This document shows positions 18,181 to 56,960 of a stretch of DNA of 64,000 bases, in pieces. Under the pieces are notes generated by a model. That model did no database searches. It saw only the letters and a list, made by a program, of their open reading frames with translations, and was not told where the DNA came from. The DNA is from Actinopolyspora alba (GTDB taxonomy: Bacteria > Actinomycetota > Actinomycetes > Mycobacteriales > Pseudonocardiaceae): contig NZ_FOMZ01000002.1 of the NCBI RefSeq assembly GCF_900112765.1, positions 62,001 to 126,000 on the forward strand, written 5' to 3'. Each line of letters opens with the position of its first letter. Positions within the stretch are counted from its first letter, which is position 1. The position numbers were made by a program, and so were the translations under genes.

Positions 18181-18271
18181 GGTCGGTCATCGGTCGCTGA
18201 GGCGGACGCTTGCCACGTTGGGCCGCTCTTGAGTAGGCCGCTACGCGGCGAGCGGCCCTGCCTCGCAATCG
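18181..18271 (+). repeat. structured intergenic repeat, family C copy 1
   Basis: Hairpin with basal stem GGGCCGCTC (18220-18228) / GAGCGGCCC (18250-18258), and apical stem GTAG (18233-18236) / CTAC (18241-18244) around GCCG. Conserved flanks on the left (GGCGGACGCTTGCCACGTT) and right (CCTCGCAAT). It lies about 70-110 nt after the thrC-like stop. Confidence 0.75.
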
Positions 18272-18335
18272 AACCACCTCAACGACCGGGGTTCTGTCGT
18301 TCCGAGCCTGTTGCCGGAGTTGTCGAAGTACTGCG

Positions 18336-18455
18336 TGGCGGAACCTCTCGCACCGCTCTCGCTGCGGGAGGCCCGACATCGGGTAGCGACTACACAACGT
18401 CGGGCCTTCCTCGCGAGAGCACCACGAGAGAACCCGCGACGGTGCCGACTGCGTA
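18336..18455 (+). repeat. structured intergenic repeat, family B copy 1
   Basis: Starts with the conserved box GTGGCGGAACCTCTCGC (18336-18352). Basal stem AGGCCCGAC (18370-18378) / GTCGGGCCT (18400-18408); apical GTAG (18384-18387) / CTAC (18391-18394) around CGA. An outer stem CTCTCGC / GCGAGAG (18357-18363 with 18414-18420) lengthens the hairpin. The rest of the 411-bp thrC-comEC convergent gap holds no gene. It likely terminates both transcripts. Confidence 0.75.
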
Positions 18456-18560
18456 CGTGGGCGTTCGGCGCTGCCGCGCCGAGGAACAGCAGCGGTCTAC
18501 CGCACCCGAACAGAGCTCGGATATCTACTCCTCGGCCACATCCCGCCCCGGGATTGATTC

Positions 18561-20942
18561 TCAGTCGTCGGGGCGGAACGGGTCGCCGGTGCTGGCGGTC
18601 CGCATTCCGCGGTTTCCGCCCAGCACTGCGATGTCGCCACGGCGATCGGTGCGGCGTACCACGGCGCCGAGGCCGCGCAGCGTCGTGACGATCCCGTCGC
18701 TGGGATGCCCGTAGTCGTTCCCGTGCCCCACGCTGATCAGCGCCACCCGTGGGGAAACCGCTCGGAGGAACTCGTCACTGGTGTACCGGGAACCGTGGTG
18801 CGGCACCTTGAGCACTTCCGCGTCCAGCCGAACATCCGCCGAGAGCAGCTCGCGCTGCCCGGCCAGTTCGATGTCGCCGGTCAGCAGTACCCGCCCTGCC
18901 GGAGTGTTCGCCCGCAGCACCACCGAGGCGTCGTTGACCCGTTCCGCCGCCACGGGCTCGGCGTCTCCTTCCGGTGCCAGCACCTCGACCTCCAGAGCGG
19001 GCCAGCGGATCAGCTGCCCCGCGGACAGTCGCACGAGATGCGCGTCGTTGTCGCGCGCACGTCGTCGAACGTCGGTGTCCGACCAGATGGACGGACGGGC
19101 CGCTCCCGTAGCCACCGCATCGACCTCGCGTCCCACCAGCACCCCGGAGATGCCGGCGTAGTGATCGGCGTGCGGGTGGGTGAGCACCAGCAACGGCACG
19201 TGCCGCACCCCGAGGCGGTCGAGACACCGATCGACCAGGGCGGCGCTGGGACCGGTGTCCACCACGACGGCGGAACCGCGGACTCCGGTGGCCAGTACCA
19301 GGCTGTCCCCCTGTCCGACGTCGCAGGCCACGACGCTCCAACCCGTCACAGGCCAGCCACCGGGCCGCAGCCCGACCGTGACCAGCAGCAGTAGCACGGA
19401 CAGCAGCGAACCGCCCAGGAGCAGTCTGCCGGTGCGGAACCGGAGCAGCAGCAGGATCGCGGCCACCAGGGCGACCACGAGCGGGATCCCCCGCGCCCCG
19501 GAAGGCAACGGGATCGTCGCCAGCGAGGAACTCGCGGCACACCGGGCCACCAGCAGCACCCACTCCAGTTCCGGAGCGGCAAGCAGTACCGGGAGCTCAC
19601 CCAGCGGGGAGAACCAGGGAGCGAGCAGCGTCGCGGCCACACCGAGCACCGTGGCCGGGGCGATCACCGGTTCCACCAGCACGTTCGCGGCGACACCCAC
19701 GAGGCTGAGCTCCCCGGACAACGCGACCACGAGCGGTGCGGTGGCGAGTTGCGCGGCAGCCGGCGCCACCAGCGCCTGGGCCAGCCGGAGGGGCACCCCA
19801 AGTCGCCGCAGCCACCCCGACCATGTCGGGGCGAGCAGCACCAGGGCGGCCGTGGCCGTGACCGACAACGCGAACCCGGGGCTCACGGCCAGCTCGGGGT
19901 GCCACAACAGCAGCAGGATCACACAGCCCGCGAGCGCGGGCAGTGCCGTTCCGTTACGCCCCAGCACGAGCGCGAGCAGTCCGAGCGCCCCCATGACGGC
20001 CGCACGCAGCACGCTGGGCTCACCACCGGCGAGAACCACGAATCCCGCCAGCGCTGCCCCCGCGCAGCCCGCGGCCAACGACGGCGGAGCACGCATCGCG
20101 CGAAGCAACAGCAGTACGGCACCGCAGACGATCGCCAGGTTCGCACCGGACACCGCGGTCAGGTGGGTCAGCCCCGCCCTTCCGAAATCACGGCGGACCG
20201 TGTCGAGCAACCCGCTGGTGTCCCCCACCACCAGGCCGGGAAGCAGTCCTTCGGCGCGTGGGGAGAGTGCGGACTCGGAAACATCGCGCAGTCCCGCGCG
20301 CAACCTCTCGGCGAACCGTTGTGACACGGGCGGCCGGGTCACGTTCTCCGGCCGCTGGTGGACCGCGAGAACGATCACCAACAGATCGGCTCCACGCGGA
20401 CGGAGTGCCGCACCGGTGGTGGTGGCTCGCTGCCCCCGCAACAGTCCGCCCCAGGATTCGGCGGGCACCAGCAACAGCACCGAACCGGACTCCGAGTGCC
20501 ACCGCTGCCGCTGCCGTACCGCACGGATCCGGGCACGCACCACCGACCGTTCCCCGATCCCGCCTCCGCCCCCTGCCGAGGTACCGCTGACGGGTGTGGG
20601 GCGTTCGGTGAGTTCGACACGCAGCCGTACGCTCTCTCCCCGCGAGGCGGCTTCCCGAAGCGGGTGATTCTCGACGGGTCGCAATCGCACTGCCAGCCCG
20701 AAACCGGCGGTTCCCACCAGAACCGAGCACACGATCACCCCGATCGCCCATCTCCGGCCCACGACGAACAGGCACGTCGCCGCGGCCGTGGCACAGCAGC
20801 ACGCCAACAGGACGGCGGCGACCCAACCGGTGCGCAACCCGACCAGCGTGGCGCCCCAGACTCCGAGCGCTGCCGGCACCAATCGGAGGTCCAGTGGGCG
20901 AGCCACCGACGCGGCAGTGTCCGGGCCTGCCCGGTCGGTCAT
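18561..20942 (-). CDS. comEC: ComEC/Rec2-type DNA uptake channel
   Basis: A 793-residue polytopic membrane protein that moves single-stranded DNA across the membrane in natural transformation. The N-terminal helices are followed by an OB-like region, the Competence domain with many helices (HLTAVSGANLAIVCG is its signature), and a C-terminal metallo-beta-lactamase domain with THPHADHY and VPHHGS metal ligands. All three modules are intact. ATG 20942 is preferred over the overlapping GTG 20945 because GAGG lies 5 nt upstream. It starts 7 nt after the comEA stop. Whether this lineage is naturally competent is unknown. Confidence 0.95.
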   Translation of the reverse strand: MTDRAGPDTAASVARPLDLRLVPAALGVWGATLVGLRTGWVAAVLLACCCATAAATCLFVVGRRWAIGVIVCSVLVGTAGFGLAVRLRPVENHPLREAASRGESVRLRVELTERPTPVSGTSAGGGGGIGERSVVRARIRAVRQRQRWHSESGSVLLLVPAESWGGLLRGQRATTTGAALRPRGADLLVIVLAVHQRPENVTRPPVSQRFAERLRAGLRDVSESALSPRAEGLLPGLVVGDTSGLLDTVRRDFGRAGLTHLTAVSGANLAIVCGAVLLLLRAMRAPPSLAAGCAGAALAGFVVLAGGEPSVLRAAVMGALGLLALVLGRNGTALPALAGCVILLLLWHPELAVSPGFALSVTATAALVLLAPTWSGWLRRLGVPLRLAQALVAPAAAQLATAPLVVALSGELSLVGVAANVLVEPVIAPATVLGVAATLLAPWFSPLGELPVLLAAPELEWVLLVARCAASSSLATIPLPSGARGIPLVVALVAAILLLLRFRTGRLLLGGSLLSVLLLLVTVGLRPGGWPVTGWSVVACDVGQGDSLVLATGVRGSAVVVDTGPSAALVDRCLDRLGVRHVPLLVLTHPHADHYAGISGVLVGREVDAVATGAARPSIWSDTDVRRRARDNDAHLVRLSAGQLIRWPALEVEVLAPEGDAEPVAAERVNDASVVLRANTPAGRVLLTGDIELAGQRELLSADVRLDAEVLKVPHHGSRYTSDEFLRAVSPRVALISVGHGNDYGHPSDGIVTTLRGLGAVVRRTDRRGDIAVLGGNRGMRTASTGDPFRPDD

Positions 20943-20949
20943 CACCGCC

Positions 20950-21795
20950 TCACACCCGAACCAGATCGCGCAACCGCGAGAACCGCACCGTCCCGATCCC
21001 GTCGACCTCGCGAAGCTGGGTCACCGACTCGAATCCACCGTTCTCGGAACGCCAGCGCAGAATCGCCCCGGCAGTGACCGGACCGATGCCGGGCAGTTCC
21101 CGCAGCCGCTGTTCGTCAGCCCGGTTGAGATCCACCTTCGAGGACTCGGTGGTGGTGCCGTCCGGTGCCGACCTCGAGGCGAGGGAGGGTACCGGCACCC
21201 CGACGTAGAGCTGTTCCCCGTCGGACAGTTCCCGAGCCAGGTTCAACGCCAGGGTGTCCGTCTCGGGCAACGGACCTCCCGCAGCTCGCAGCGCGTCGGC
21301 GACACGGGATCCGGTCGCCAGTGTCACCAGCCCCGGTTCGTGCACCCTGCCCACCACGCTGACCACCAGCTCGGTCTCGGAGGAGGCGGTGACGACCGCA
21401 TCGGTCACCGCTGCCGGTCCCGGAGCGGGAAGCCGAGTCGACGGAACCGCCACGGTCCCGCCACCGGAATCGCGGCTCACCAGCAGGACGACGCAGCCGA
21501 TCACCGCGGCGAGAACCACGCCGAGGCACCCCGCTCGGCCCGGGTCCAGCAACACCTCACGTGGTGTTCGGGGCAACCACCGCCGCGCCCGACCCCCGGT
21601 CTCCGGCGTCTCACGGTTTTCCGGCGTCTCGGCGGTCCCCGCCGTATCGGCCGCTGAGTTCGCCTCGGAGGCACCGCCCTCGGAAGCCATCAGCTGCCGC
21701 AGCCGTCGACGAGCCGGGGGGAGCTCGTCAGTGGTCGCGGCGACGATTCGTTCCTCCCAAGGGGACGATCCGTCGGACCGGAAAAGATCGGGCAT
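20950..21795 (-). CDS. comEA: ComEA-type DNA-binding competence protein
   Basis: A 281-residue single-pass membrane protein that binds double-stranded DNA outside the membrane. It has a cytoplasmic N-terminus, a helix near 95-115 (AGCLGVVLAAVIGCVVLLV), an SLBB domain (VSVVGRVHEPGLVTLATGSR) and a C-terminal pair of helix-hairpin-helix motifs (VDLNRADEQRLRELPGIG, then VDGIGTVRFSRLRDL). ATG 21795 is chosen; the frame remains open upstream but looks non-coding. Operon with comEC. Confidence 0.93.
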   Translation of the reverse strand: MPDLFRSDGSSPWEERIVAATTDELPPARRRLRQLMASEGGASEANSAADTAGTAETPENRETPETGGRARRWLPRTPREVLLDPGRAGCLGVVLAAVIGCVVLLVSRDSGGGTVAVPSTRLPAPGPAAVTDAVVTASSETELVVSVVGRVHEPGLVTLATGSRVADALRAAGGPLPETDTLALNLARELSDGEQLYVGVPVPSLASRSAPDGTTTESSKVDLNRADEQRLRELPGIGPVTAGAILRWRSENGGFESVTQLREVDGIGTVRFSRLRDLVRV

Positions 21796-22039
21796 ACCGG
21801 CGAAGCTAACCGGCGGTGCACCCACCGGGAACACCGAAGAACGCCTCCGGTGGACAACCGAGCACGTTGTGGACAAACACGCACGCGGCCAGCCGCACGA
21901 TACGAGATTGAGTCGAGTGCCGCGAGGCGATGTGGAAAACCGGAACGCGCCGCAGGGCGCCTTGCCCGAACCGGCTTCCCGGCCACGCTTTTGCGTTCCG
22001 CTGAGCCGGCGTCCCGACAACCCGGGCGGAAAATTCCGA

Positions 22040-22951
22040 TCAGTCGTCGAAAGGTGCGGTGCCGGTGGCACTCCACCCACCGGGCAGCACGACGACCCCC
22101 ACCGAGCCCGGCCCGATGTGAGCTCCGATGGTGGCTCCGACCTCGGAAACAACGCAGTCGGAGCACCCCGGCAGTCGCCCTCGGATATTTCGGGCGAGCG
22201 TCTCGGCCCGTCCCGGTGCCGCCAAGTGGTGGACGGCCAGCGCCGGTCGGTGCGGATCACCGACGGGGGACTGCCGCGTGGACTCGGTCGTGGCCACCTC
22301 GACGGCCAGTTGCTCCAGCCTTCGCACGGCCGCGCTGGTGGTCCGCACCTTCTCAGCGGCGTCGATCACGCCGTCGTGCAGCCGCAGCAGCGGTTTGATC
22401 GCCAGCGCCGTTCCCAGCAGGGCGGATGCGGTGCCGATGCGCCCGCCACGGCGCAGGTACTCCAGCGTCTGAACCGAGAACAGGATGGTTCCGCGCGCCG
22501 CGACGCGCTCGGCCACTCCGGTGACCTCCTGCAACCCGGCGCCTCCCTCGGCCAGCTCCGCGGCAGCCAGCACGGCGAATCCCAGCCCCATGGCAACGGA
22601 GCGGGAGTCGAGCACGTTGATGACCGAGGGCGCCACTTCGCGCGCGGCGGTGCGAGCGGCATCCACCGTGCCGGAGAGTTCACCGGAGAGGTGGATCGAG
22701 AGCACACCCTCGGCTCCCGCGTCCAGCGCCGCGCGGTAGGCCGCGGCGAACTCGGCAACCGTCGCCCCCGAGGTGGTGACACGCCTGCCGCGGCGCAGCT
22801 GTTCGGTCAGGCGCCCCGGACCGAACGAGGTCTCGTCGCTGTACTGCTCGGCCTCCGTGCTCACGTGCAGCGGAATCACACGCACGCCGTAGTGCTCGAC
22901 CCGTCGCGCGGGCAGGTACGCGGTCGAATCGGTGACCACGGCGACGCTCAA
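22040..22951 (-). CDS. DegV-family fatty-acid-binding protein
   Basis: A 303-residue DegV protein. Members bind a long-chain fatty acid and, in some bacteria, pass it to a fatty acid kinase. The N-terminal VAVVTDSTAYLP and the IHLSGELSGT/DSRSVAMGLG segments are family hallmarks. Start is TTG 22951 with GGAG 9 nt upstream; no ATG or GTG fits. It lies between comEA and gpgP as in mycobacteria, where the DegV gene occupies the same slot. A 244-bp empty spacer separates it from comEA. Confidence 0.92.
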   Translation of the reverse strand: MSVAVVTDSTAYLPARRVEHYGVRVIPLHVSTEAEQYSDETSFGPGRLTEQLRRGRRVTTSGATVAEFAAAYRAALDAGAEGVLSIHLSGELSGTVDAARTAAREVAPSVINVLDSRSVAMGLGFAVLAAAELAEGGAGLQEVTGVAERVAARGTILFSVQTLEYLRRGGRIGTASALLGTALAIKPLLRLHDGVIDAAEKVRTTSAAVRRLEQLAVEVATTESTRQSPVGDPHRPALAVHHLAAPGRAETLARNIRGRLPGCSDCVVSEVGATIGAHIGPGSVGVVVLPGGWSATGTAPFDD

Positions 22952-22991
22952 CGCGGGCTCCGCCGAGAACCACGAGCGATCCGGGGGAGTG

Positions 22992-23606
22992 TCATTCGAC
23001 GAACCCGCCGTTGTAGGTCGTCAGCCGCCAGCCGTGCTTGCCGAGGGTGCTGCGGGAGAGCACGGCCCAACCGCAGTTGCCCACCCCGCCGAGGCTGGAC
23101 CAGATCTCGGTCGGCCACCCCAGCAGTCTGGCGGTCAGCGCTGTTATCAGACCGCCGTGCGCGCACAGCAGCGCCGTGCCTTCCACGGCCTCGTCGAGTT
23201 CGGACACCACCTCGTAGGCGCGTTCGGCGACCTCCACCCTGGTCTCGCCGTCCGGTGGCGCGAAGGTGGGCTGGGTGCGCCACGCACCCATCGCCCCGGG
23301 CCACCCCTGCTCGACCTCGGCGCCGCTGAGTCCCTGCCACTGCCCGAGGTTGGTTTCGCGCAGCCGCTCGTCCAGCCGGACCTCCTGCCCGGTGACCTCG
23401 GCGAACGCCGCGGCCGTGGTGCTGGCACGACGCAGATCCGAGCTCACCGCCACTTCGGGACCGAACCCCGCCACCAGCGGCGCGGTGCGTTTGGCCTGTT
23501 CCAGTCCGAGTTCGGTGAGTTCGGAATCGAGATGCCCCTGGATACGACCCGCCAGGTTGTAGTCCGTCTCGCCGTGCCGCCAGAGCACCAGCCGTTGCAG
23601 GGTCAC
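22992..23606 (-). CDS. gpgP: histidine phosphatase, probable glucosyl-3-phosphoglycerate phosphatase
   Basis: A 204-residue branch-1 histidine phosphatase. The phosphoryl-accepting histidine is in LWRHGETDYN (H11), and the second histidine is in CAHGGLITAL. SSDLRRA and LRETNLGQWQGLS closely follow mycobacterial GpgP, which dephosphorylates glucosyl-3-phosphoglycerate for glucosylglycerate and methylglucose polysaccharide synthesis. The position between rsfS and degV is also the same as in M. tuberculosis. GTG 23606 overlaps the rsfS stop by 4 bp (GTGA). Substrate rests on similarity and synteny. Confidence 0.85.
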   Translation of the reverse strand: MTLQRLVLWRHGETDYNLAGRIQGHLDSELTELGLEQAKRTAPLVAGFGPEVAVSSDLRRASTTAAAFAEVTGQEVRLDERLRETNLGQWQGLSGAEVEQGWPGAMGAWRTQPTFAPPDGETRVEVAERAYEVVSELDEAVEGTALLCAHGGLITALTARLLGWPTEIWSSLGGVGNCGWAVLSRSTLGKHGWRLTTYNGGFVE

Positions 23607-24013: not shown

Positions 24014-24187
24014 ATCGCTCCTCTCGGTGGTCACCGTCTGCCACCCATACTCCGAACGAGGATAACCGTCCCCCGCTCGACGGGCGGAATCCACCGGACC
24101 GTACCGGTCGCCGCGGGCGAGGTGCCGGACGAGTGGGAGAGGGCCGGAGCGGTGCCCGCCGCACGCGTACCGTTCGGCCCGAGGTGC

Positions 24188-29882: not shown

Positions 29883-29890
29883 CACCTCTC

Positions 29891-29914
29891 CGTCAATTTC
29901 TCGCGAAATTGACG
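29891..29914. repeat. palindrome family A, copy 4
   Basis: CGTCAATTTC-TCGC-GAAATTGACG: 10-bp arms with a 4-nt centre. Confidence 0.75.
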
Positions 29915-29944
29915 CTCCAGTACGGCGGTGCGGTCCCCGAGCTC

Positions 29945-29968
29945 CGTCAATTTCTCGCGAAATCGCCG
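29945..29968. repeat. palindrome family A, copy 5
   Basis: Same left arm as copy 4 (CGTCAATTTCTCGCGAAAT); the right end diverges to CGCCG. 54 bp from copy 4. Confidence 0.65.
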
Positions 29969-30051
29969 CGCCCTTGGTGCTCCGAAAGCCGAGCCCCAAC
30001 CACCAGTGCAGGCCGAACCCCGACCATCAACGCAGGCCGAGCCCCCACCAC

Positions 30052-30176
30052 CCTCGCATCCAGCACCGCCGCGGGTTCCCCCGTGCGGCTATCGCGAGAA
30101 AGGCCCGACGTTGTGTAGGCCGCTACCCGATGTTGGGCCTCCCCAGCGAGAGCGGTGCGAGAGGTTCCGCCACCCG
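30052..30176 (-). repeat. structured intergenic repeat, family B copy 2 (inverted)
   Basis: Reverse complement of family B. Basal arms at 30101-30109 and 30132-30140, apical GTAG/CTAC at 30115-30118 and 30123-30126 around GCCG, and the conserved box GCGAGAGGTTCCGCCAC near 30157-30173. It lies 34 nt after the proB stop. The remaining bases of the 480-bp recQ-proB convergent gap show no gene. Confidence 0.75.
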
Positions 30177-30209: not shown

Positions 30210-31346
30210 TCAGGTGAGGGGGGCCAGATCATCGGCGTGCACGACCTCACGCCGCTGTTCGAACGGCAGCTCGTGGCTGGAACGGCCGATCAGGTCGGGC
30301 AGCTCGGCGGCGTCGAAGCACACCACGCCGCGTGCCACCACCGCGCCGGACGGTCCGGCAAGTTCGACGACGTCGCCGCCCTCGAACGCCCCCTCGACAC
30401 CGGTGATACCGGCGGCCAGCAGCGAACGCCGTCGCCGCAGCACGGCGTCGACGGCTCCCTCGTCGAGGTGCAGCCTGCCCTGTGCTCCGGCGGCGTGTGC
30501 CAGCCAGAAACGTCGCGCGGACAACCGCGGTCCGGTCGCCGCGAACACGGTGCCCACGTCGGCCTTCCCGAGGGCCTCGCCGGCCAGGTCCGCGGAGGTG
30601 AGCAGGACGGGGATACCGGCCGAACAGGCCACCCGGGCGGCCTGCACCTTGGAGGCCATCCCGCCGGTCCCCAGCCCGGAGGCTCCGCTCGAACCGACCG
30701 TGATCCCCTCCAAGTCCCGCGCTGCCGAGATCTCGCGAACCGGACCGGCCGCACCGTCACGCGGGTCGCCGTCGTAGAGCGCGTCGACGTCGGAGAGCAG
30801 CACCAGGGCGTCGGCACCGACGAGATGGGCCACCAGCGCCGCCAACCGGTCGTTGTCACCGAAGCGGATCTCGGCGGTGGCGACCGTGTCGTTCTCGTTG
30901 ACCACCGGGACGGCACCGAGGTTCAACAACCGGTGCAGCGTGCGGTGCGCGTTGCGGTAGTGCGCCCTGCGGACGACGTCGTCGGCGGTCAGCAGTACCT
31001 GTCCCACGGTGAGTCGGAACCTCGCGAACGAGGCGGCGTAGGCGTGTGCCAGCGCCTGTTGCCCCACGCTGGCGGCAGCCTGCTGGGTGGCCAGGTCCTT
31101 GGGCCGTTTCCCCAGTTCCAGCGGAGCGATTCCCGCCGCGATGGCTCCGGATGAGACGAGCACGAGCTGACTGCCCTCCGCCATCCGTGCGGCGACGGTT
31201 TCCACCAGAGCCGTCAGACGGTTCTCGTCGAGACCGCCCTCCGCCGTGGTCAACGAGGAGGAACCGATCTTGACCACGACCCGGCGCGCCGCCGAGATCG
31301 CGTTCCGGGTCGGAGATGTCAGGGCGGCGAGTTCACCGGAACTCAT
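30210..31346 (-). CDS. proB: glutamate 5-kinase
   Basis: A 378-residue enzyme that phosphorylates glutamate in the first step of proline synthesis. The amino-acid-kinase domain ([12 protein letters not shown] near 23-34; [20 protein letters not shown]) is followed by a C-terminal PUA domain, giving the full-length form. ATG 31346 overlaps the obgE stop by 4 bp (ATGA), so translation is coupled to obgE. proA is not adjacent. Proline is also an osmoprotectant, in keeping with the BCCT gene, but that link is speculative. Confidence 0.96.
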
Positions 31347-36239: not shown

Positions 36240-36970
36240 CTCTGCCACTGTACGTGTCCGAACGAACCGGCAAGGCCGCCACCTGAAACAACGATCGCAC
36301 CACGAGAATCTCGCACGAAAGAATCGGACGGAACCGATCAAGCCGTTCGTGACCCACACGATTGAGTGAATATCGATCGCGAAGCGGAAGAAATGGAACG
36401 CGACGGCCGTCATCGCCGAAGCTTCGGCGAAGTCGAAGACGCGATCCCAACCGCCACGAAAACCGAAATCGGCCGGGACGACGAAAGTCACGCACCGGGG
36501 CCGATGTCACGGCGTCCCGGAAACCGTTTCCCGATTCGGGAAGAACCAACACCGCGACGTGCCGAACGGGCCAATCGAACTCCACGCGCGACACACGAAA
36601 TATCGGACTTGTCCGAAAGCACCGTTCGAACACCGCGGGTGCTTCCGCGACACCGTCCAACGGCCGACGGCTAGCGGCCAGCCCGCCGGAACATCGACTC
36701 GCGGGTGTTCTCCGGCGTAGCCGACCACCGAAGAACGCCCCCGAAGTCCTCCCATCGTCGGCCTCGGGTCGGCGACCAGCCGGTAACGGGCAGGCGACGT
36801 GGGGGCTCCCGCCTCACCCTCTCCCGGGTAGGGACCGACGTGGTACAGCTGCCCACTCGATGTCGGTCCCACCCCGCGAGCGCGGGCGGGAGGATCCGCC
36901 AACCGGATGTCCCGGCGAACCGGGACGACAACACTCCGTTACGACTCGGCACGAAGCGACCGGGCCGGTA
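36240..36970. other. gene-free region downstream of rne
   Basis: About 730 bp without a supportable gene. Several overlapping open frames on both strands are Arg-rich, lack ribosome sites and have no recognisable domain. The rne terminator candidate is at 36909-36926. Confidence 0.5.
36909..36926 (-). terminator. hairpin downstream of rne
   Basis: GTCCCGG-CGAA-CCGGGAC, a 7-bp stem with a stable CGAA tetraloop, 45 nt after the rne stop. Confidence 0.6.
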
Positions 36971-42415: not shown

Positions 42416-43513
42416 ATGCGCGCCGCCGTACACACCGCAGTGAACGAGCCGCTGCGGATCGAGGAGATCGAAGCAGAGCGTCCCGCCGAGGGTGAGGTGG
42501 CCATCGACGTGACTTCCTGCGGTGCGTGCCACTCGGACCTGCACGTGCTGAAGGGCGAGTTGCCGTTTCCGACCCCAGCGGTGCTGGGTCACGAGGTCGC
42601 CGGGGTGGTCAGCGAGCTGGGAAGCTCGGTCAGCGGCCTGGAGGTCGGTGACCGCGTGGTCACCAGCTTCATCATGCCGTGCGGCAGGTGCGCGCAGTGC
42701 GCGGCGGGCAACGAGGAGATCTGCCTGGAGTTCTTCGCCTACAACCGCGCCAAGGGGCAGCTCTACGACGGGCGGACGAGGCTCTCGCGCGACGGCGAGC
42801 CGGTCTGGATGTACTCGATGGGTGGGCTGGCCCAACGCGCGGTAACCCCCGCCACCTCGGTGTACCGGGTGCCGGACGGGGTTGAGCTGACGGACGTGGC
42901 GGCTGTCGGATGTTCGACCATGACCGCCTACGGGGCGCTGCGACACGCCGCCGACGTGCGGGTGGGCGACACGGTGGCCGTGGTCGCGGCCGGAGGCGTG
43001 GGCTCGGCGCTGATCCAGCTGGCGCGGGTCTTCGGGGCCGCCGAGATCATCGCGGTGGACGTCGCGACGGAGAAGCTGGCGGCGGCTCGGGAGCTCGGCG
43101 CCACCAGCACGGTCAACTCGACCGAGACGGACCCGGCGACGGCGGTCCGCGAACTCACCGGTGGACGCGGTGTGGACGTCGCCTTCGAGGCGCTGGGCTC
43201 GTCCCGGACCTTCGAGGTGGCGCGGGACTCGGTGGTCGAGGGCGGTCAGGTCGTCGTGGTGGGCATCGCGCCGCCCGGCGACATGGGTGAGCTGAACCTG
43301 GGCACCATCGCTCGACGCAAGCTGCAGGTCAAGGGCTCCTACGGCGCCAAACCCCGCAGGGACATGCCGGTGCTGCTGGATCTGGTGGCCCGTGGACTGC
43401 TGCGGCCGCAGGACGCGATCAGCGAGCACTACCCGCTGGAGCGGGCGGCCGAGGCGTTCGCCGCGCTGGATCGGGGGGAGATTCGCGGACGGGCCGTGAT
43501 CGACGTGGCGTAG
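42416..43513 (+). CDS. zinc-dependent alcohol dehydrogenase (MDR superfamily)
   Basis: A 365-residue medium-chain dehydrogenase. Catalytic zinc ligands are C35 and H59-E60 ([18 protein letters not shown]), and structural zinc cysteines lie in [16 protein letters not shown]. The Rossmann motif is [15 protein letters not shown]. It oxidises alcohols or reduces aldehydes with NAD(P); the long form with [12 protein letters not shown] resembles actinobacterial class III-like enzymes, but the substrate is open. ATG 42416 follows AGGAG. It stands alone, divergent from ndk. Confidence 0.92.
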
Positions 43514-43555: not shown

Positions 43556-43680
43556 TGGCGGAACCTCTCGCTCCGGCGAGGCCCGACATCGAGTAGCGAC
43601 CTACGCCACGTCGGGCCTTCCTCGCGAGAGCCGTACGCGAGAACCAGCGGGGGTGCCGACTGCGTGAGTGGTCGGAGTTC
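43556..43680 (+). repeat. structured intergenic repeat, family B copy 3
   Basis: Conserved box GTGGCGGAACCTCTCGC at 43556-43572. Basal stem AGGCCCGAC (43579-43587) / GTCGGGCCT (43610-43618); apical GTAG (43593-43596) / CTAC (43601-43604) around CGAC. It begins 43 nt after the dehydrogenase stop and abuts a decayed toxin gene. With it, the 303-bp gap 43514-43816 is explained. Confidence 0.78.
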
Positions 43681-43689
43681 GGCGTGCGT

Positions 43690-49464: not shown

Positions 49465-49488
49465 CCGCTCCCCTGCCGTGACCCGCGC

Positions 49489-49513
49489 GGCGATTTCGCG
49501 AGAAATTTACGCC
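49489..49513. repeat. palindrome family A, copy 6
   Basis: GGCGATTTCGCGAGAAATTTACGCC, imperfect, 25 nt after one stop codon and 46 nt from the convergent one. Likely bidirectional terminator. Confidence 0.7.
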
Positions 49514-49558
49514 CCTTCGACCGCAGAGCTGCCGTCAACGATGCGAGAGCAGCTATGC

Positions 49559-50422: not shown

Positions 50423-50431
50423 GAAGCTGGT

Positions 50432-50542: not shown

Positions 50543-50614
50543 TGATTCACTCCACGATCGGATTCGACTTCGCGAGTGATCCTAACTCGCAGCCACGACA
50601 CGATGGGGTGAGAT

Positions 50615-50631
50615 GGTGACGAAGAGTCACC
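50615..50631. terminator. small hairpin downstream of DUF397 operon
   Basis: GGTGAC-GAAGA-GTCACC, 6-bp stem, about 185 nt after the last DUF397 stop on the minus strand. Weak candidate. Confidence 0.3.
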
Positions 50632-50655
50632 CATGATGGATCACAGGTCGCCTCG

Positions 50656-50886
50656 TCAGTACCGTTCCTCGTCCCGCTTCATTCGGACGAGTTGCCCACT
50701 GTCGTGGTCCTGCCGTATCCGGCCACACGGTCGTGGCATCGGCCCTTCGACAGTGGACACCTCGAACTCGTCGCCTCTTCCCGGCTCCAGCGACGACTCC
50801 GGAAAGGCGATACGCCTACGCTTCGGCACGGAGACTCGCCAGGAAGGATCTCCATTGAGCAGCAGGGACCGCGAGCACACCCGCAT
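50656..50886 (-). CDS. possible small overlapping ORF
   Basis: A 76-codon frame from ATG 50886 overlapping the DUF397 gene end. Residues VSVPKRRRIAFPESSLEPG then GDEFEV faintly resemble the SpoVT/AbrB swapped-hairpin pattern. There is no clear ribosome site, so non-coding is at least as likely. Confidence 0.22.
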   Translation of the reverse strand: MRVCSRSLLLNGDPSWRVSVPKRRRIAFPESSLEPGRGDEFEVSTVEGPMPRPCGRIRQDHDSGQLVRMKRDEERY

Positions 50887-51025
50887 CGGGCGATTTCGAG
50901 TCCCGCACAGCGGCGAAACCCTCACCGAAGGCGACCTCGACGCAGTTGCCACTGCCGCTGCCAGCACCTCCAGAGCGGCTGCTCTTGCGCCAGGCCAGAC
51001 CAGCTGACTCCCCCGCTACGAACAT
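50816..51025 (-). CDS. DUF397 protein, copy 2
   Basis: A 69-residue DUF397 protein: WRKSSRSGG, NCVEVAFGEGFAAVRDSKSP and WRSFLASLR. Such genes accompany XRE/DUF5753 regulators in actinomycetes, sometimes in bld/whi-like developmental or toxin-antitoxin-like pairs. ATG 51025 follows GGAGG at ideal spacing, 10 nt after the previous stop. The core of about 100 bp is nearly identical to the gene upstream, indicating recent tandem duplication or gene conversion. Confidence 0.85.
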   Translation of the reverse strand: MFVAGESAGLAWRKSSRSGGAGSGSGNCVEVAFGEGFAAVRDSKSPDAGVLAVPAAQWRSFLASLRAEA

Positions 51026-51035
51026 CTTCGCCTCC

Positions 51036-51260
51036 TCAACTGCCGTACTCATAACGATCGCTGTGCAATCCACTCAAGAAGGACCGCCACTGGGCAGCGG
51101 GCACCGCGAGGACACCCGCATCGGGTGATTTGGAGTCCCGCACAGCGGCGAAACCCTCACCGAAGGCGACCTCGACGCAGTTGCCACCGCCAGGCCCACC
51201 GCTACCGGAGCGGCTGCTCCTGCGCCATGTACTTGTCAGTCGAAGAGCATTACCAGTCAT
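51036..51260 (-). CDS. DUF397 protein, copy 1
   Basis: A 74-residue DUF397 protein with WRRSSRSGSGG, NCVEVAFGEGFAAVRDSKSP and WRSFLSGLH. ATG 51260 with GGAGTG upstream, 18 bp after the XRE regulator. It forms an operon XRE-DUF397-DUF397. The two copies differ mainly in the Gly-rich loop and the C-terminus. Confidence 0.87.
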   Translation of the reverse strand: MTGNALRLTSTWRRSSRSGSGGPGGGNCVEVAFGEGFAAVRDSKSPDAGVLAVPAAQWRSFLSGLHSDRYEYGS

Positions 51261-51278
51261 GTCGCACTCCTTGCAGTC

Positions 51279-52163
51279 TTACGAGTAACGCTTCGCTGCC
51301 TGCTCGAACAGATCCATCGAAGCAGCTTGGGAGTAGGAACGTTCCGTCAGTATTCCGAACTTGAGGGTGCAGCTACGCACCGAAGAACGGTCCTCGATGT
51401 ACACACCACCGCCATGACCTTCGGCGTACCCAAAATCAGGTATGGGATCGGGCAGCGTAAGTAGCGAAAACGGACCGTCCAACGCTGGTGTCGCTCCGGC
51501 CGACTTAGGAAGCACCTGGATCGTCACATGCTCACTGGAAGCTTCATCGACCAAACGACGAAACTGATTGCGCATGACGCGGCTGCCTCCAACCGGGCGC
51601 TCCAGCACAGCTTCTTCCAGGATCACATGGTATTGCAACGGTTCCGAACGGTTGAGCACCTGCTGCCGAGCCATCCGCGCGGTGACTCGCCGTTCCACCA
51701 CGTCCTCGGCCAAGCCTGGGTCGGCTCCGTTGATGAGTGCACGGGTGAAGTCAGGGGTTTGCAACAGTCCCGGAACCACCATCGTCTCGAACTGGCGTAG
51801 TGCGATCAGCGAACTCTCCACACCGAGGAACGAGTGGAAGTCCTCGGGAAGGTCCTTACGCAAGGCAAGCCAATAGCCACGTTCGTGGGCGGTCTCAGCC
51901 AGCTCAAGAACCCACTCTCGTAATGCGGTATCGCTTACTCCGTAAGTGTCGAGGAGCTGCACGACCTCACGAGCGCGTACTCCCTGGTCACGCGTCTCGA
52001 TCCGAGACAGTTTGGAACTGGACCACTTGCCGGAGCTGGCTTTGAGCCATGAGACCGCCTGATCAATAGTGAGCCCGGCATCCTCACGCAACCGCCGAAG
52101 CGTCTCGGTGAGCTGCCACCTTCGCACTGTCGCATTGACAGCTTCGCCGTTTCCCTGGGACAT
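51279..52163 (-). CDS. XRE-family regulator with DUF5753 domain
   Basis: A 294-residue protein. An N-terminal helix-turn-helix (about 15-75, LRRLREDAGLTIDQAVSWLK) is followed by the DUF5753 domain (FETMVVPGLLQTPDFTRALI ... VTIQVLPKSAGATPALDGPF). This is the standard partner of DUF397 proteins and a very abundant actinomycete regulator pair related to BldB/WhiJ systems. ATG 52163 follows AAGGAGGC. It faces a divergent small gene across an inverted-repeat-containing spacer. Confidence 0.93.
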   Translation of the reverse strand: MSQGNGEAVNATVRRWQLTETLRRLREDAGLTIDQAVSWLKASSGKWSSSKLSRIETRDQGVRAREVVQLLDTYGVSDTALREWVLELAETAHERGYWLALRKDLPEDFHSFLGVESSLIALRQFETMVVPGLLQTPDFTRALINGADPGLAEDVVERRVTARMARQQVLNRSEPLQYHVILEEAVLERPVGGSRVMRNQFRRLVDEASSEHVTIQVLPKSAGATPALDGPFSLLTLPDPIPDFGYAEGHGGGVYIEDRSSVRSCTLKFGILTERSYSQAASMDLFEQAAKRYS

Positions 52164-52220
52164 CGTTCGCCTCCTTGGGTGAACACCGCCGCACGATGTG
52201 CCTCCCTTCGAGTGAAGTGA

Positions 52221-52252
52221 GTGGGATACCACTTTTTTATCTGCAATCCCAC
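52221..52252. promoter_or_regulatory. inverted repeat between XRE regulator and divergent small gene
   Basis: GTGGGAT-N18-ATCCCAC, perfect 7-bp arms around an AT-rich centre with six T residues. Likely operator of the XRE protein controlling both directions. Confidence 0.55.
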
Positions 52253-52309
52253 AATCATCATTGATGTTGCACACCGTAATCAGGAAGCTACATCTTGCGG
52301 GAGGAAGTC

Positions 52310-52636
52310 ATGTCGGGAGGCTCAACCAACGGGATCACTCCTGAAACGGAGTGGCTCACCACACAGTCGAACAGCGACGTGGAAAAGTTCGAGAGCAACG
52401 TTGCTCTGAGTGACTCAGCCCCACGTGTGTTCGCCCTGCTGGAGAGAACCGACCCCGAGTCCGGCGAGCTGGAGCTGTACGCCTGGGGTGTGGAAGTGGG
52501 TGGGAGCGCCAACGTGTTCCGGGCCGACGGCCACGTGCTCGCTCACTGCTGCTCGGCCGAAGGGGCGCGACGCATGTTCGGCATCATCCGCGACGTCGTG
52601 CTGGTCTGGCCCGAGGAAACCAACCTGACCGAGTGA
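52310..52636 (+). CDS. hypothetical protein divergent from the XRE/DUF397 operon
   Basis: A 108-residue soluble protein with no recognised domain. The readable core is VFALLERTDPESGELELYAW then GVEVGGSANVF, with a mostly strand-like pattern and an acidic C-terminus. ATG 52310 follows GGGAGGAAG. It shares the intergenic inverted repeat with the XRE regulator and may be part of the same system. Confidence 0.6.
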   Translation: MSGGSTNGITPETEWLTTQSNSDVEKFESNVALSDSAPRVFALLERTDPESGELELYAWGVEVGGSANVFRADGHVLAHCCSAEGARRMFGIIRDVVLVWPEETNLTE

Positions 52637-52811
52637 AAATCGGCGGGAGCACCTTACGCACCGAGAGTCCGACCCCTACGAAGAAACCGGACCACCCGGC
52701 GGCGCTGAAACAGCGGAGATCGCCGGGTTGGTTCACCGGTAACCAGCCCCGCATTCGGCACGCGAAGCAGAACGAGCGGAACCGACGGTAATCTAGGGAC
52801 ATCGAGGCGAC

Positions 52812-53272
52812 ATGATCAGCGCATTCATCGAACGTGTTCCCACCCGACTCGTTGCCGATACGTCCGACGAATTCGAACGCGTAATCGAAAAACTGCTGTC
52901 GGGTCCCGAGGACTATCCGGTCGGAAGCGTGGAGGATCCCCACGTCATCGCGGACCTGTATCCCGGCGATGTGGACGGCGCGGAGGATGAGGACGAGCAG
53001 CAGCTTCCGATCGGGTGGCTACACGTCAGCGTCCAGCCGCAGGACAGCGTCGGCGCGATCAACTACATCCGGACCGACGGAACGACGATCGAGTCCTGGG
53101 AAGCCTCCGGCTCCGAGCATAGCCGGGGCTGCTGTACTCGCCCCACAGCGGCAGCCGGTTCGACACCGACGCCGCTCTCCCGGTGGACACCGTCGCACGA
53201 GCGGTCCGCGAATTCGCGGAAAGCGGCACAAGGCCAACATGCGTGACCTGGTGTCAGGGAATACTCGTCTGA
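52812..53272 (+). pseudogene. Imm1-family immunity protein, single frameshift
   Basis: From ATG 52812 (GAGGCGAC upstream) a frame encodes an Imm1-like N-terminus (DEFERVIEKLLSGPEDYPVG ... INYIRTDGTTIESWEA). At the G run 53125-53128 the similarity passes to the -1 frame, which continues LLYSPHSGSRFDTDAALPVD, VREFAESGTRPTCVTW and stops at 53272. The R-P-T-x-V-x-W ending is typical of Imm1. Restoring one G would rejoin about 154 residues. Imm1 proteins neutralise polymorphic deaminase-type toxins; no toxin gene is adjacent. Confidence 0.7.
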
Positions 53273-53604
53273 AACGCGAGCCGAGCAAGACGAGTCGTTC
53301 CCGGAACGACTACCGGTCGTGGATCCCACACCTCAACAGACAGATCGATGTTACGCCGAAAACATCGCTCGGTCAGTTTCACATGGTCAGACGACATCGC
53401 CGACGTTCATCCGCTCGTTTCCTGCTTCGGCCCGAATGGCGAGTGCGGCCCGTGGCTCGGCCTGGGACGGGAGCGCACAAACCAGCCCGCCATCGGCTCA
53501 CACCAGGAAACCGATCCCAGTAACGGATCCGGTCGGCAACGGCGTCCAGTAAGACTGCGTAGCGGACGCCTCGCGGTCACGCCGTGATCCGCGAACAGCC
53601 CCCT
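53273..53604. other. gene-poor interval after the Imm1 remnant
   Basis: 332 bp without a supported gene. One plus-strand frame (53348-53587) contains FTWSDDIADVHPLVSCFGPN but has no ribosome site and no family I recognise; it could be a scrap of an accessory gene. Confidence 0.4.
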
Positions 53605-54285
53605 TCAGGAACAGTCGGCAGCCTCGATTTCCACGACGATGGCGGTGTCGACCTCGCGGACGTCGTACTCGGGCTGGGTGGGCGCGCCGTGGCAGCTGGT
53701 GACCCCGATCGCGGCCTCCTGCACCTTCTCGAAACCGCCCAGATAGCGCACCTCGGCCACGGTGGGCAGCTCGGGCTCGATCGCCTCGCGCAGCTCACCG
53801 CCCGCAGTGGCGTGCGTGAACGTCACACCGAGGAAGTTCTGCCCGGACATCTCCACCGGTTTGCCCGAGCCGGGAGCCTTCGGATAACCGTCGAGGTACT
53901 TCACCCGGTAGCTCGGCAACTCGCTCTTGCCACCGACACCGTCGAACCGGAAGACGACCCGCGCGGAAGCGCCCTCTCCCCCCTGGACGTCCACACCGGT
54001 CAGCTCGGCGAGATCCCCACCGGCTCCGGAATTCGCCCCGTCACCCGAACCGCCGGAGTCCGCGGCCGTGGAACGGCCGTCGGAGAAGCTGTCGACGACA
54101 TCGGTGGCGGTACTTTCCGCGCTGTCGCCGTCCGAGCTCGCGCTGCCTGCCCCGATGGAACCACTGGCCTCGGCGCCCGTCGCGGCTCCCGATGAGGACG
54201 CCGAGTCCGAGGCGCATCCGGCCAGCGGCAGCACCAGCGCGGCCGCCGCGCCCGTCAGCAACATCCGTGCACCACGACGTCGCAT
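53605..54285 (-). CDS. secreted lipoprotein with AMIN-like domain
   Basis: A 226-residue lipoprotein. The signal peptide ends in the lipobox LAGC (C24), a Ser/Gly/Asp-rich linker spans about 25-95, and a C-terminal domain of about 125 residues (GASARVVFRFDGVGGKSELP) resembles AMIN-like domains found on actinobacterial surface lipoproteins. ATG 54285 sits 9 nt after GGAAGG. Probably anchored outside the membrane; ligand unknown. Confidence 0.8.
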   Translation of the reverse strand: MRRRGARMLLTGAAAALVLPLAGCASDSASSSGAATGAEASGSIGAGSASSDGDSAESTATDVVDSFSDGRSTAADSGGSGDGANSGAGGDLAELTGVDVQGGEGASARVVFRFDGVGGKSELPSYRVKYLDGYPKAPGSGKPVEMSGQNFLGVTFTHATAGGELREAIEPELPTVAEVRYLGGFEKVQEAAIGVTSCHGAPTQPEYDVREVDTAIVVEIEAADCS

Positions 54286-54538
54286 CTCCCTCACCCTTCC
54301 AAGTGATCTCACCGCGTCGTTCTGACATTCCGTGTGACGCCCGATCGTTCCGACAGGTTGCGAGCGAGCCGGGAGAACTACGCCTCGATACCGAGGACCA
54401 TCGGTTACGACTCGCCCCGCCCCGAACGCGTCGAATCGGCCGAACGGCGGAGCCGCTCCGACGCCCCGCTCGCTAGAGTTCGAGTCCGCTCGACTGATCG
54501 TCAGTACCGAGCGAACCTCGACTCACCTGGGAGAATCG

Positions 54539-54892
54539 ATGAGACGAATCCTGTCGCTCGCGATCATGCTGCCACTGTTGATCCTCGCGCCCGCCACCGC
54601 CGCCGCGGCCGCGCAGGGCTCCGAGACCACCCAACAGAGCGCTGCTCGACTGGCGGCCGCGGCGCAGTGTCCAGACACCCTCTCGCGAGGTAGCTACGGC
54701 GAGATGGTCGTGGCGCTGCAGAACACGCTGAACAACTATCCGTACGAGGTCACCGGCCCGGACCTGGTCCCGGACGGCATCTACGGCCCCAAGACCGAGG
54801 CAGCGGTGATCAACTTCCAGAGCTGGTACGGCCTGCGGGTCGACGGAATCACCGGCCCCGAGACGTGGGGCCAGCTCGGCGCCTGCTGGTGA
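54539..54892 (+). CDS. secreted peptidoglycan-binding protein
   Basis: A 117-residue exported protein. A signal peptide covers residues 1-25 (ILSLAIMLPLLILAPATAAA). A single PG_binding_1 domain (about 48-115) follows: GSYGEMVVALQNTLNN, VPDGIYGPKTEAAVINFQSW and VDGITGPETWGQLG. It has no catalytic domain. Two cysteines (near 44 and 116) may form a disulfide. ATG 54539 after GGGAGA. Binds cell wall; partner enzyme unknown. Confidence 0.88.
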   Translation: MRRILSLAIMLPLLILAPATAAAAAQGSETTQQSAARLAAAAQCPDTLSRGSYGEMVVALQNTLNNYPYEVTGPDLVPDGIYGPKTEAAVINFQSWYGLRVDGITGPETWGQLGACW

Positions 54893-54902
54893 TCAGTGCA
54901 CG

Positions 54903-54927
54903 GGGAGCGCTCCGCACGAACGCTCCC
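54903..54927 (+). terminator. hairpin after the peptidoglycan-binding gene
   Basis: GGGAGCG / CGCTCCC (54903-54909 with 54921-54927), 11-nt loop, starting 10 nt after the stop. Confidence 0.6.
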
Positions 54928-55057
54928 GGTGATCTCTCCTTCCCCCGCAGCGCCCGTCCGGCCTGCCTTGGACACGCCGCGTGAACGACGTGGGAGTTAT
55001 GCTGTGCCTCCACGACGCCGGTGACGACTCGGAGAGCTGGCTTGGAGGCCCACCCGC

Positions 55058-55900
55058 ATGGGACGGATCACGGTACGCAGGCCGGTGCGACGCATCGGCC
55101 CGAACGGCGAGACCACCCGCCCCGACACGCTGGCCGCCGAGGAGCCGCTGGAGATCCGGCTGGACGGCAAACCGCTGACCGTGACCATGCGCACCCCCGG
55201 TCACGACGTGGAACTCACCCACGGCTTCCTGCTGACCGAGAGCGTCGTCACCGCGCGGGAGGACGTCACGGCGGCGCGCTACTGCGACAGCCCCGGCCCC
55301 GACGGGCGCAACACCTACAACGTGCTCGACGTACAGCTGGCTCCCCACGTCCCCCGGCCGGACAACTCGGTGGAGCGCAACTTCTACACCACCTCGTCCT
55401 GCGGAGTCTGCGGCAAGGCCGCACTCGACGCGGTGCGGCTCCGCAGCGCGCACCCGCCGGAATCCGACGACTCCCGCGTCAGCACGGAAACGCTGGTCGA
55501 GCTGCCGGAGAAGCTGCGGGCGGCGCAACGCGTGTTCGACACCACCGGTGGGCTGCACGGCTCGGGACTGTTCGACACGGCGGGCGAACTGTTGGCGGCC
55601 CGGGAGGACGTGGGCAGGCACAACGCGGTGGACAAGGTGCTCGGCTGGGCGCTGCTGGACGGCCGCACACCACTGCGGGGTCACGTGCTGATGCTCTCGG
55701 GTCGCGCCTCGTTCGAACTGGTGCAGAAGGCCGCGATGGCGGGCATCCCGACGATCGCGGCCGTTTCCGCACCCTCGTCGCTGGCAGCCGAGCTGGCCGA
55801 GGAACAGGGCATCACCCTGATCGGCTTCCTGCGCGGCTCCTCGATGAACGTCTACACCCGACCGGACAGGCTGTCGGGGGCCGAGGCACCCGAAGAGTGA
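55058..55900 (+). CDS. fdhD: FdhD sulfurtransferase for formate dehydrogenase
   Basis: A 280-residue FdhD that passes sulfur from a cysteine desulfurase to the molybdenum/tungsten cofactor of formate dehydrogenase. The mobile-loop cysteines are in SSCGVCGK (C115 and C118), and [14 protein letters not shown] is represented by [15 protein letters not shown]. The length is normal. ATG 55058 after TTGGAGG. No formate dehydrogenase gene lies in the window. Confidence 0.95.
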
Positions 55901-55927
55901 GCCCGACAGCTCCAAGGACGGGACCGG

Positions 55928-56566
55928 TCACACCAGGCGGAACGTGCTCGGGGCCGCTCCCCCGGTCTGGGGTGGCGTCTCGAACCTGTCCGCCACCGGC
56001 GTGGTGCCGTGCGAGACCCAGCGCAGCACCGCGGGCCAGGGGCCGTAGCCCGCGTCGGTGTTGAGGTGCTCCCCGTCCGGGATCACGTCCAGCGCTACCC
56101 GCATGGTCTCGGCCAGGTAGTGCCCGTCCTGCACGGAGAGATACGGATCGCCGGTACCGACGACCATGCGCGTGGAGCCCGCCGCCCTGCGCAAGGCGTG
56201 CGCGTCGACCGGATAAGGGGTGATGCCGTGGACGTCGGGATGACGCCAGTCCGGTCCGGGCGGTGCGACCAGCAGCACCCGGTCGGCACGGCGCGCGGTG
56301 CCGTGGATGGTCGCGGCGTGGTGCAGCCACAGTGCCGCCCCGCAGGAATGCGCGGCCACCACCAGCTCGGACTCCGCGGGAACGTCCTCCAGCCGCGAAC
56401 GAAGCACGGCCAACCATTCCTGCAGCACCGGTTGGTCCTGTTTGGGCAACCGCGGCATCTCACAGGTCACGCCCAGTTCGTTCAGCCGTCCACTGAGCCA
56501 CTGCTGCCAGTGCCACGGCCCCGAACCACCGAACCCGTGCACCAGCAGGACATGCATCTCACTCAC
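55928..56566 (-). CDS. RBBP9/YdeN-family alpha/beta hydrolase
   Basis: A 212-residue serine hydrolase of the RBBP9/YdeN type. The oxyanion region is VLLVHGFGGSGPWHW, the nucleophile is AHSCGA (S74), and the late acid and histidine are in GTGDPYLS and DGEHLNTD. GTG 56566 follows GGGAGGGG at 6 nt. Substrate unknown. It converges on fdhD with a 27-bp gap. Confidence 0.87.
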   Translation of the reverse strand: MSEMHVLLVHGFGGSGPWHWQQWLSGRLNELGVTCEMPRLPKQDQPVLQEWLAVLRSRLEDVPAESELVVAAHSCGAALWLHHAATIHGTARRADRVLLVAPPGPDWRHPDVHGITPYPVDAHALRRAAGSTRMVVGTGDPYLSVQDGHYLAETMRVALDVIPDGEHLNTDAGYGPWPAVLRWVSHGTTPVADRFETPPQTGGAAPSTFRLV

Positions 56567-56698
56567 CGTGTTCCCCTCCCGACATCGGCAATCACGATGG
56601 TCGGCACCATGATTGCCCATCGGGGGACATTACGCGCGCGGTACACGCGGAGGGGAACACCATCCGGCTATGACAGGCGCACAGCGGACTTGCACGGC

Positions 56699-56795
56699 TG
56701 GTCGGTTAGCCGGCACGTGAGTCGGCGCCTTGCCGCGTTGGGCCGGCTCTTGAGTAGCGACCTACGCGGCGAGCGGCCCGGCCTCGCAATGCATC
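56699..56795 (+). repeat. structured intergenic repeat, family C copy 3
   Basis: Left arm GGGCCGGCTC (56740-56749) and right arm GAGCGGCCC (56771-56779), with one bulge. Apical GTAG (56754-56757) / CTAC (56762-56765) around CGAC. Flanks match copy 1 (GGCGCCTTGCCGCGTT; CCTCGCAAT). Confidence 0.75.
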
Positions 56796-56860
56796 CGACT
56801 CACGCACCGAGGACACCCGCGCTGCTTAGGCGCGTGCTCCCGTCCCGACAGGCGGCCCGA

Positions 56861-56878
56861 CAACTTCGCGAGAAATTG
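56861..56878. repeat. palindrome family A, copy 7
   Basis: CAACTTCGCGAGAAATTG, one mismatch from perfect symmetry. Confidence 0.65.
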
Positions 56879-56895
56879 ACGCCGTAGCTGCGCGG

Positions 56896-56960
56896 GTGGC
56901 GGAACCTCTCGCACGGCTCTCGCTGCGGGTGCCCCGACATCGGGTAGTTAGCTGCTTACC
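56896..56960 (+). repeat. structured intergenic repeat, family B copy 4 (truncated)
   Basis: GTGGCGGAACCTCTCGCACG then GCTCTCGCTGCGGG match copy 1; the left arm is present but the right half after GGGTAG is lost. Confidence 0.7.

Follow-up and report, generated by a model that had tools for sequence, protein, structure and literature searches.

Repetitive extragenic palindromes (REPs) have a partner transposase, the REP-associated tyrosine transposase (RAYT), and enterobacterial repetitive intergenic consensus (ERIC) sequences and similar long intergenic palindromes are imperfect, about 100-130 nt in length, and present in many intergenic copies; we know of no strict stop-codon spacing for palindromes of the ERIC type. 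For REPs and bacterial interspersed mosaic elements (BIMEs), roles in the stability of mRNA, in translation, and in termination have been proposed. PMC3733652 describes REPs as sequences of about 20-40 bp with a terminal tag and states that GTAG REPs frequently provide the stop codon, while PMC12306157 states that REPs reduce translation only if they lie no more than 15 nt from the stop. For Streptomyces clavuligerus, 353 structured transcript ends lacking a U-tract are given in PMC8269248. Here we analysed a stretch of 64,000 nt from Actinopolyspora alba (contig NZ_FOMZ01000002.1, positions 62,001 to 126,000, hereafter the window), which carries several copies of two related intergenic hairpins, B and C. 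From their structure, position, and conservation we infer that B and C are probably an ancient RNA element of the 3' untranslated region (UTR) which forms or protects transcript ends.

Structure of the B and C hairpins

B is an imperfect hairpin of about 101 nt in which freely varying stems lie between fixed boxes, namely GCGGAACCTC/GAGAACCCGC, CTCGCTGCGGG/GTCCTCGCGAG, and the apical GTAG..CTAC. The outermost stem, GCGG/CCGC, stands above an AAC/AAC internal loop. The 5' side runs in the order GCGG-AAC-CTC, variable arm, CTCGCTGCGGG, variable upper stem, internal loop, and GTAG-loop-CTAC, and after the apex the strand returns via GTCCTCGCGAG and the variable arm to GAG-AAC-CCGC. The conservation of these boxes is partly built in because the copies were gathered by them, while the pairing of the stems is not. 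The GTAG-(3 or 4 nt)-CTAC apex and the two different stems were as described in a first-pass annotation of the window; the stem that it had called the basal stem of B exists, and is really the upper stem, with the outer GCGG/CCGC arms below it.

In C, the outer stem is CGTGAGTCGG/CCGACTCACG, and the upper stem closes on the GTAG apex common with B. The stems of C differ visibly yet still pair in G000, G007 (same genus), and G022 (another genus). The leaders 5' of B and C are alike, of the type TGGTCG(C/G)TT(A/G)GC, the signal for B being weak, with most positions below 1 bit. Because this leader, the slot after the stop codon, and the apex are common to both and B/C chimeras joined at the apex were found, the two hairpins are probably forms of a single element. 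The relatedness noted in the first-pass annotation was thereby kept, and its division into two families gave way to that description. In G022, B forms with a C-type apical loop occurred, as did one B with the Actinopolyspora B apex.

Two further arrangements were seen outside the genus. In G022 (loci L050, L221-L224, L226, and L239), a C-like core lay in a unit of ~230 nt with inverted ends of about 22 nt, which had the look of a miniature inverted-repeat transposable element (MITE); these units start at or beside a TGA, which in some copies is the stop of the upstream gene. In other genera, a small hairpin resembling AGCGGCTTCGCCGCT stood within about 60 nt 3' of B in several copies (L304, L306, L308, L310, L311, and L313).

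Position relative to genes

Placement was scored in G000, G003, and two other regions of G009 with a home-made gene caller, whose stops are reliable, whose starts are unreliable, and which missed some genes; hits below 18 bits and one at the edge of a stretch were left out. Full B lay in sense orientation 3' of a gene in 45 of 50 cases and full C in 10 of 11, and divergent spacers held none of the 61. In 41 of the 50, full B was in sense and started 28-60 nt past the stop codon, compared with 3.7-4.7% by random placement in spacers, and most copies stood 35-45 nt from the stop. Some of the B copies farther off stand after a C filling the slot, as with C1 and then B1 in the window. The same position was found in other genera: a gene stop lay within 100 nt upstream at 17 of 22 loci in G022, at a distance of 30-53 nt, and at 14 of 19 loci from further genera, at 36-45 nt with one at 88; all but two of these distances fell at 36-53 nt. 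Neither the sense orientation nor the spacing from the stop codon had been noticed in the first-pass annotation. In a sample of 140 gene 3' ends without B or C, 45-nt hairpins reached -26.5 kcal/mol versus -20.1 kcal/mol in 115 divergent spacers; with stronger hairpins at these other 3' ends, the element occupies a slot where terminator-like hairpins are expected.

These positions bear on the alternative that B and C are REP-like or MITE-like DNA repeats spread via a putative transposase, with the placement after stops produced by insertion preference plus purging of harmful insertions and the pairing produced by self-correction of the palindrome or by gene conversion. How an insertion event would gauge a distance of ~38 nt from the stop is not obvious, and sites farther downstream should be tolerated, yet few are occupied. 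We regard such an origin as unlikely, although it accounts for several features of the copies given below.

Covariation and folding

Covariation was counted over 70 B copies on a hand-set structure of 31 pairs, derived from the same sequences, and compared with 500 shuffles, which ignore relatedness. Paired cells made up 93.6%, as against 85.1% (sd 0.4) in the shuffles; there were 15 versus 10.3 pairs with changes on both sides and 134 versus 38.8 double-change cells, and the covariation score was 0.207 versus 0.080. None of these four measures was reached by any shuffle (0/500), so that the covariation proposed as a check in the first-pass annotation was strongly positive. When the structure was slid along the sequences, paired cells dropped to 34-52%. 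The RNAalifold consensus on alignment A1 gave 18 pairs only, because the arms were misaligned in A1, and the hand-set structure and a swap test were therefore used.

Since the hand-set structure came from the same sequences and the shuffles ignore relatedness, an alignment-free half swap was added, in which the 5' half of each copy was joined to the 3' half of another. Over the pooled 70 B copies, the native mean was -57.6 kcal/mol and the swapped mean -46.7 kcal/mol, a cost of ~11 kcal/mol, and no permutation reached the native value (0/20000). By genome, the count was 0/20000 in G000 (n=18), G009 (n=18), and G022 (n=13), and 109/20000 in G003 (n=11). Self-correction of a DNA palindrome would close the conserved internal loops, but these remain unpaired.

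Orthologous loci and turnover

The syntenic stretches of G009, G005, and G003 were compared with that of G000, the aligned blocks being roughly 95%, 95%, and 85% identical, respectively. For the 18 full B copies in the 400-kb stretch of G000, a B (full or 5' half) was present at 14 of 16 mappable sites in G009 and at 11 of 15 in G003. By our own division of the ortholog counts, the rate of change at paired positions was about a third of that at unpaired positions. Between two genera, 95 orthologous genes of G009 and G022 were examined for an element in sense orientation no more than 130 nt from the stop, which was found in both genomes at 4 genes, in G009 only at 3, in G022 only at 2, and in neither at 86 (Fisher p=1.6e-4); for one of the four shared genes, the G022 match is partial and weak (17 bits), and with it dropped p was 0.0024. 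This comparison superseded a count by eye, in which 4 of 7 orthologs from other genera, at 72% identity or more, carried B or C in Actinopolyspora.

At two of the four shared genes, those for an M24 peptidase and for the RNA polymerase beta' subunit, a full B followed the gene in both genera. There the stems were replaced and the pairing was retained, with native energies of -58/-65 and -58/-60 kcal/mol, as against only -35/-42 and -43/-34 kcal/mol when the halves were exchanged. The orientation in sense, the distance from the stop codon, and these shared genes with rewritten stems together favour a role in the transcript of the upstream gene.

Several properties of the copies are those of DNA repeats: they are many and of high identity (C mostly 91-97%), truncation is frequent, they form mosaic blocks with a palindrome D, one block (C3) is a recent gain, and the C-like units of G022 have inverted ends of about 22 nt. 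Against a repeat origin stand the retention of most copies at the same loci in relatives and of some at the same genes in another genus, so that the "non-autonomous mobile hairpin" of the first-pass annotation was mostly unsupported. A search of the own genome for Y1 transposases found one PF01797 gene, of IS605 type, whose 3.4-kb locus has no B and only one C match at chance level (6.9 bits). The position of this single gene is unrelated to the repeats, and mobilisation by a RAYT as for REPs was rejected on that ground; nor was a coding parent found for the hairpins, the search being for Y1 transposases and not for other transposase families. Among the few loci read by eye, one gain replaced ~24 nt and left no clean target duplication, and the other differences were deletion-like.

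Copy number and distribution

The own genome (5.24 Mb in 42 contigs) had at least 40 strong matches to B (40 scored of 226 candidates) and 12 weak antisense ones, with best E-values of 2e-79 for the query itself and 4e-45 for the next. It also had at least 40 matches to C (40 of 98 candidates), many of them 93-97% identical over about 99-116 nt and the longer ones down to 91%. The abundance of B and C is far above chance. A scan of named genomes, which possibly leaves out the own genome, found the exact 22-nt core of C in 70 stretches, all from Actinopolyspora (righensis, mzabensis, xinjiangensis, and biskrensis). Of 61 genomes searched, all 10 of the genus (the own genome among them) had C, G022 from another genus had a weak match, and the remaining 50 had none. 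G007 had 2-3 B/C matches among the matches listed, and the other nine genomes of the genus had at least many more, G007 being a natural near-loss genome.

The covariance-model search that had been proposed in the first-pass annotation was strongly positive across the family: at E<=1e-4, model R1 matched 65 of 249 genomes, which belong to 14 of the 46 genera, its own included, with at least 16 matches each in many genomes. In the printed copies from other genera, the end boxes were nearly unchanged and the paired arms quite different. In a class-wide sample of 296 genomes, which included at least one further genome of the family without a match, the own genome was the sole match at E<=1e-5; strict filters were applied in both the family and the class runs. 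Within these searches, the element is restricted to one actinobacterial family. The window matches in Rfam 15 were two tRNAs and an S-adenosylmethionine (SAM) riboswitch only, with none at B or C at the gathering score, and at E<=5 C1 and B1 gave only below-threshold matches to microRNAs and small RNAs; the hairpins are thus no named family at the Rfam 15 threshold, as had been supposed. No description was met in the literature searched on Actinopolyspora intergenic palindromic repeats and Saccharopolyspora repetitive extragenic palindromic sequences, most subscription journals lying outside that search.

Constraint, gene content, and partial copies

A number of observations weigh against a function of B and C in the upstream message. 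No U-tract stands 3' of the hairpin, the sequence after GAGAACCCGC being GC-rich, for example GGCGGTGCCG (printed copies, by eye), and because of this the hairpin is not a canonical intrinsic terminator. The 50 full B copies scored for placement include orthologous pairs, G000 and G003 being syntenic; with G003 removed, 34 copies are left, 31 of them in sense and 27 at 28-60 nt. Partial copies are common, and partial B was in sense in only 13 of 19 cases and at 28-60 nt in 10 of 19, with two in divergent spacers. In 26 close ortholog comparisons, 57 pairs were broken, 25 were kept by a single change, and 10 by a double change. As many single changes between close orthologs break pairs, each copy taken alone is loosely constrained, and the double changes could have arisen by gene conversion between copies. 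The antisense strand gave the more stable fold in 67 of 70 B copies, and in the stem columns G-U (67) and A-C (47) occurred at comparable rates, with no strand preference. We attribute the antisense stability to loops such as the fixed AAC/AAC, which on that strand close through G-U pairs; the result can be read as a sense RNA holding its loops open and is not proof of it.

The genes upstream of the element share no common function. Regulation specific to certain genes was rejected, the 18 upstream genes scanned being mixed in function. The long conserved structure, the fixed internal loops, and the position in the 3' UTR would also suit a trans-acting small RNA or a ligand-sensing element released from 3' UTRs, but the large copy numbers and the functionally mixed genes are unfit for one regulon or one ligand, which makes this explanation very improbable.

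The six stretches held 74 full B copies, 42 parts with the 5' end, and 5 with the 3' end, and the loci of other species 42, 8, and 4, respectively, in counts that take orthologs repeatedly and in which G003 is almost without such parts. Truncation at the apex affected both B and C: the 5' half stayed in place, and the 3' half was lost along with the DNA downstream of it. Of the 5' parts, 30 of 50 ended at model positions 46-60, near the apex, although by eye some of these 30 (for example G000 211816 and G009R1 139203) are broken elsewhere, and only 1 of 9 of the 3' parts began at positions 44-60. Since several half-copy loci have a full copy in a relative or outgroup, the half copies resemble the product of a deletion that starts at the apex and extends in the 3' direction; the deletions that were read span about 140 to 1040 nt. 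In G009, one internal loss was flanked by short direct repeats. The truncation of C2 and B4, once attributed to mobility or decay, belongs with decay, mostly of one kind (5' halves). Assembly artefact was not favoured, because the far ends differ between G009 and G005 at one locus and halves recur in several assemblies.

As a cause of the one-sided half copies, breakage specific to a replication strand was rejected, as the apex-cut copies were one-stranded in a first region (by eye) and on both strands in another region of G009. The break near the apex, the full copies of relatives, the chimeras joined at the apex, and the stem wobbles without strand preference would fit a hairpin that acts as DNA, in cruciform or single-stranded form, for a DNA-binding or processing protein with a role such as chromosome organisation or repair, and that is cleaved at the apical loop. 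However, neither the stop-codon spacing nor a count of 45 of 50 copies in sense would be expected from a DNA hairpin that is nearly symmetric, and the strand bias of the apex-cut copies seen in one region did not recur in another. We consider a DNA-level role quite improbable, and an RNA element of the 3' UTR is retained as the preferred reading.

Copies in the window

All seven copies reported in the first-pass annotation were found where it had placed them, the boundaries given here being those of the profiles. C1, a full C on the + strand (18182-18281), lies 32 nt past the stop of a gene for a pyridoxal phosphate (PLP)-dependent enzyme (16878-18149, +; PF00291). The full B1 (18338-18437, +) follows it as the second element, 188 nt past the same stop, and at the orthologous loci in G009 and G005 (the copies of window 18390) the hairpin is cut at the apex. 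The SAM riboswitch lies 5' of this gene, at 16734-16864. C2 (29820-29881, +) is the 5' half of a C-type hairpin, which ends at GAGTAGCGACC (apex, 29881). B2, a full B on the - strand (30071-30170), stands 39 nt past the stop of an amino-acid kinase/PUA gene (30210-31277, -).

B3 (43559-43647, +) is of B type with a shortened 5' arm, 45 nt past the stop of an alcohol dehydrogenase-like gene (42440-43513, +); its locus carries 5' halves in G009 and G005 and a full copy in G003. C3 (56699-56806, +) is a full C within a C-spacer-palindrome block 5' of B4. This block is absent from that position in G009, G005, and G003, and in G005 the 3' part of a C lies on the far side of its B. B4 (56899-56958, +) is a 5' half of B ending right after GGTAG (apex, 56947), and the locus has a full B in G005 and G003. 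A decayed B copy at 36819-36899 on the - strand (model 1-83, 24.8 bits), found with the profile, had been overlooked in the first-pass annotation, as had the common leader and the outer arms.

Interspersed among the B and C copies is a third palindrome, of the type CGATTTCGCGAGAAATCG, which occupies 9886-9916, 13123-13153, 29888-29972, 49485-49515, 56855-56885, and 56992-57073 of the window. Counted on both strands, its profile matches numbered 83 in G000 (400 kb), 52 in G009 (378 kb), 22 in G005 (191.5 kb), and 9 in G003 (360 kb), a distribution suggestive of a recent expansion within one clade. A direct repeat of 153 nt with 86% identity, 235 nt from start to start, was also seen at 50840-51227.

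Discussion

The first-pass annotation had offered a structured RNA terminator or processing element as one half of its interpretation, and this is the better half, favoured by the covariation, the orientation, and the spacing; the function itself we infer from these. The message of the upstream gene would continue past its stop codon with a leader of ~25-40 nt and then fold into an imperfect hairpin of ~100 nt with fixed internal loops. Most likely, the hairpin would stop or pause RNA polymerase, block 3'-to-5' exonucleases at the transcript end, or do both, and the fixed boxes (the AAC/AAC base, the CTCGCTGCGGG/GTCCTCGCGAG middle, and the GTAG apex) may be read by a protein or a ribosome-associated factor. 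In a more far-reaching and tentative version, which we hold to be possible though somewhat less than an even chance, the hairpin would be a dedicated transcript-end system of the whole family, in which the structure ~38 nt past the stop, its loops read by a putative protein or ribosome-linked factor, ends or caps messages that have no U-tract; it would stay with the same genes from genus to genus even as compensatory change replaces its stems.

The ending of messages in GC-rich actinobacteria is only partly understood, and many mapped transcript ends have no U-tract. A family of covarying hairpins at a measured distance from the stop offers ready test sites, which the covariance model finds, and close species provide natural full, half, and lost alleles of the hairpin at the same genes. 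The evidence points to an uncatalogued RNA signal at message ends, and its relation to known systems is as follows. ERIC-type palindromes resemble the element in size and in their many intergenic copies, a likeness of description. REPs and BIMEs of Escherichia, Pseudomonas, and Stenotrophomonas are likewise intergenic palindromes of many copies, often near stop codons. Unlike REPs, the element is ~100 nt long, carries GTAG at the apex rather than having a terminal GTAG or CGTC tag, starts ~38 nt past the stop in a fixed sense orientation with strong covariation, and has no RAYT that the Y1 search of its own genome could find. With intrinsic (Rho-independent) terminators it shares a GC-rich hairpin soon after the stop codon, and it differs from them in having fixed sequence boxes and no U-tract. 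The I-shaped (U-less) terminator hairpins of GC-rich actinobacteria are also GC-rich hairpins at transcript ends without a U-tract, a position that the element would share; whereas the available part of PMC8269248 reports no shared boxes for such ends, the boxes and loops of the element are fixed across genera.

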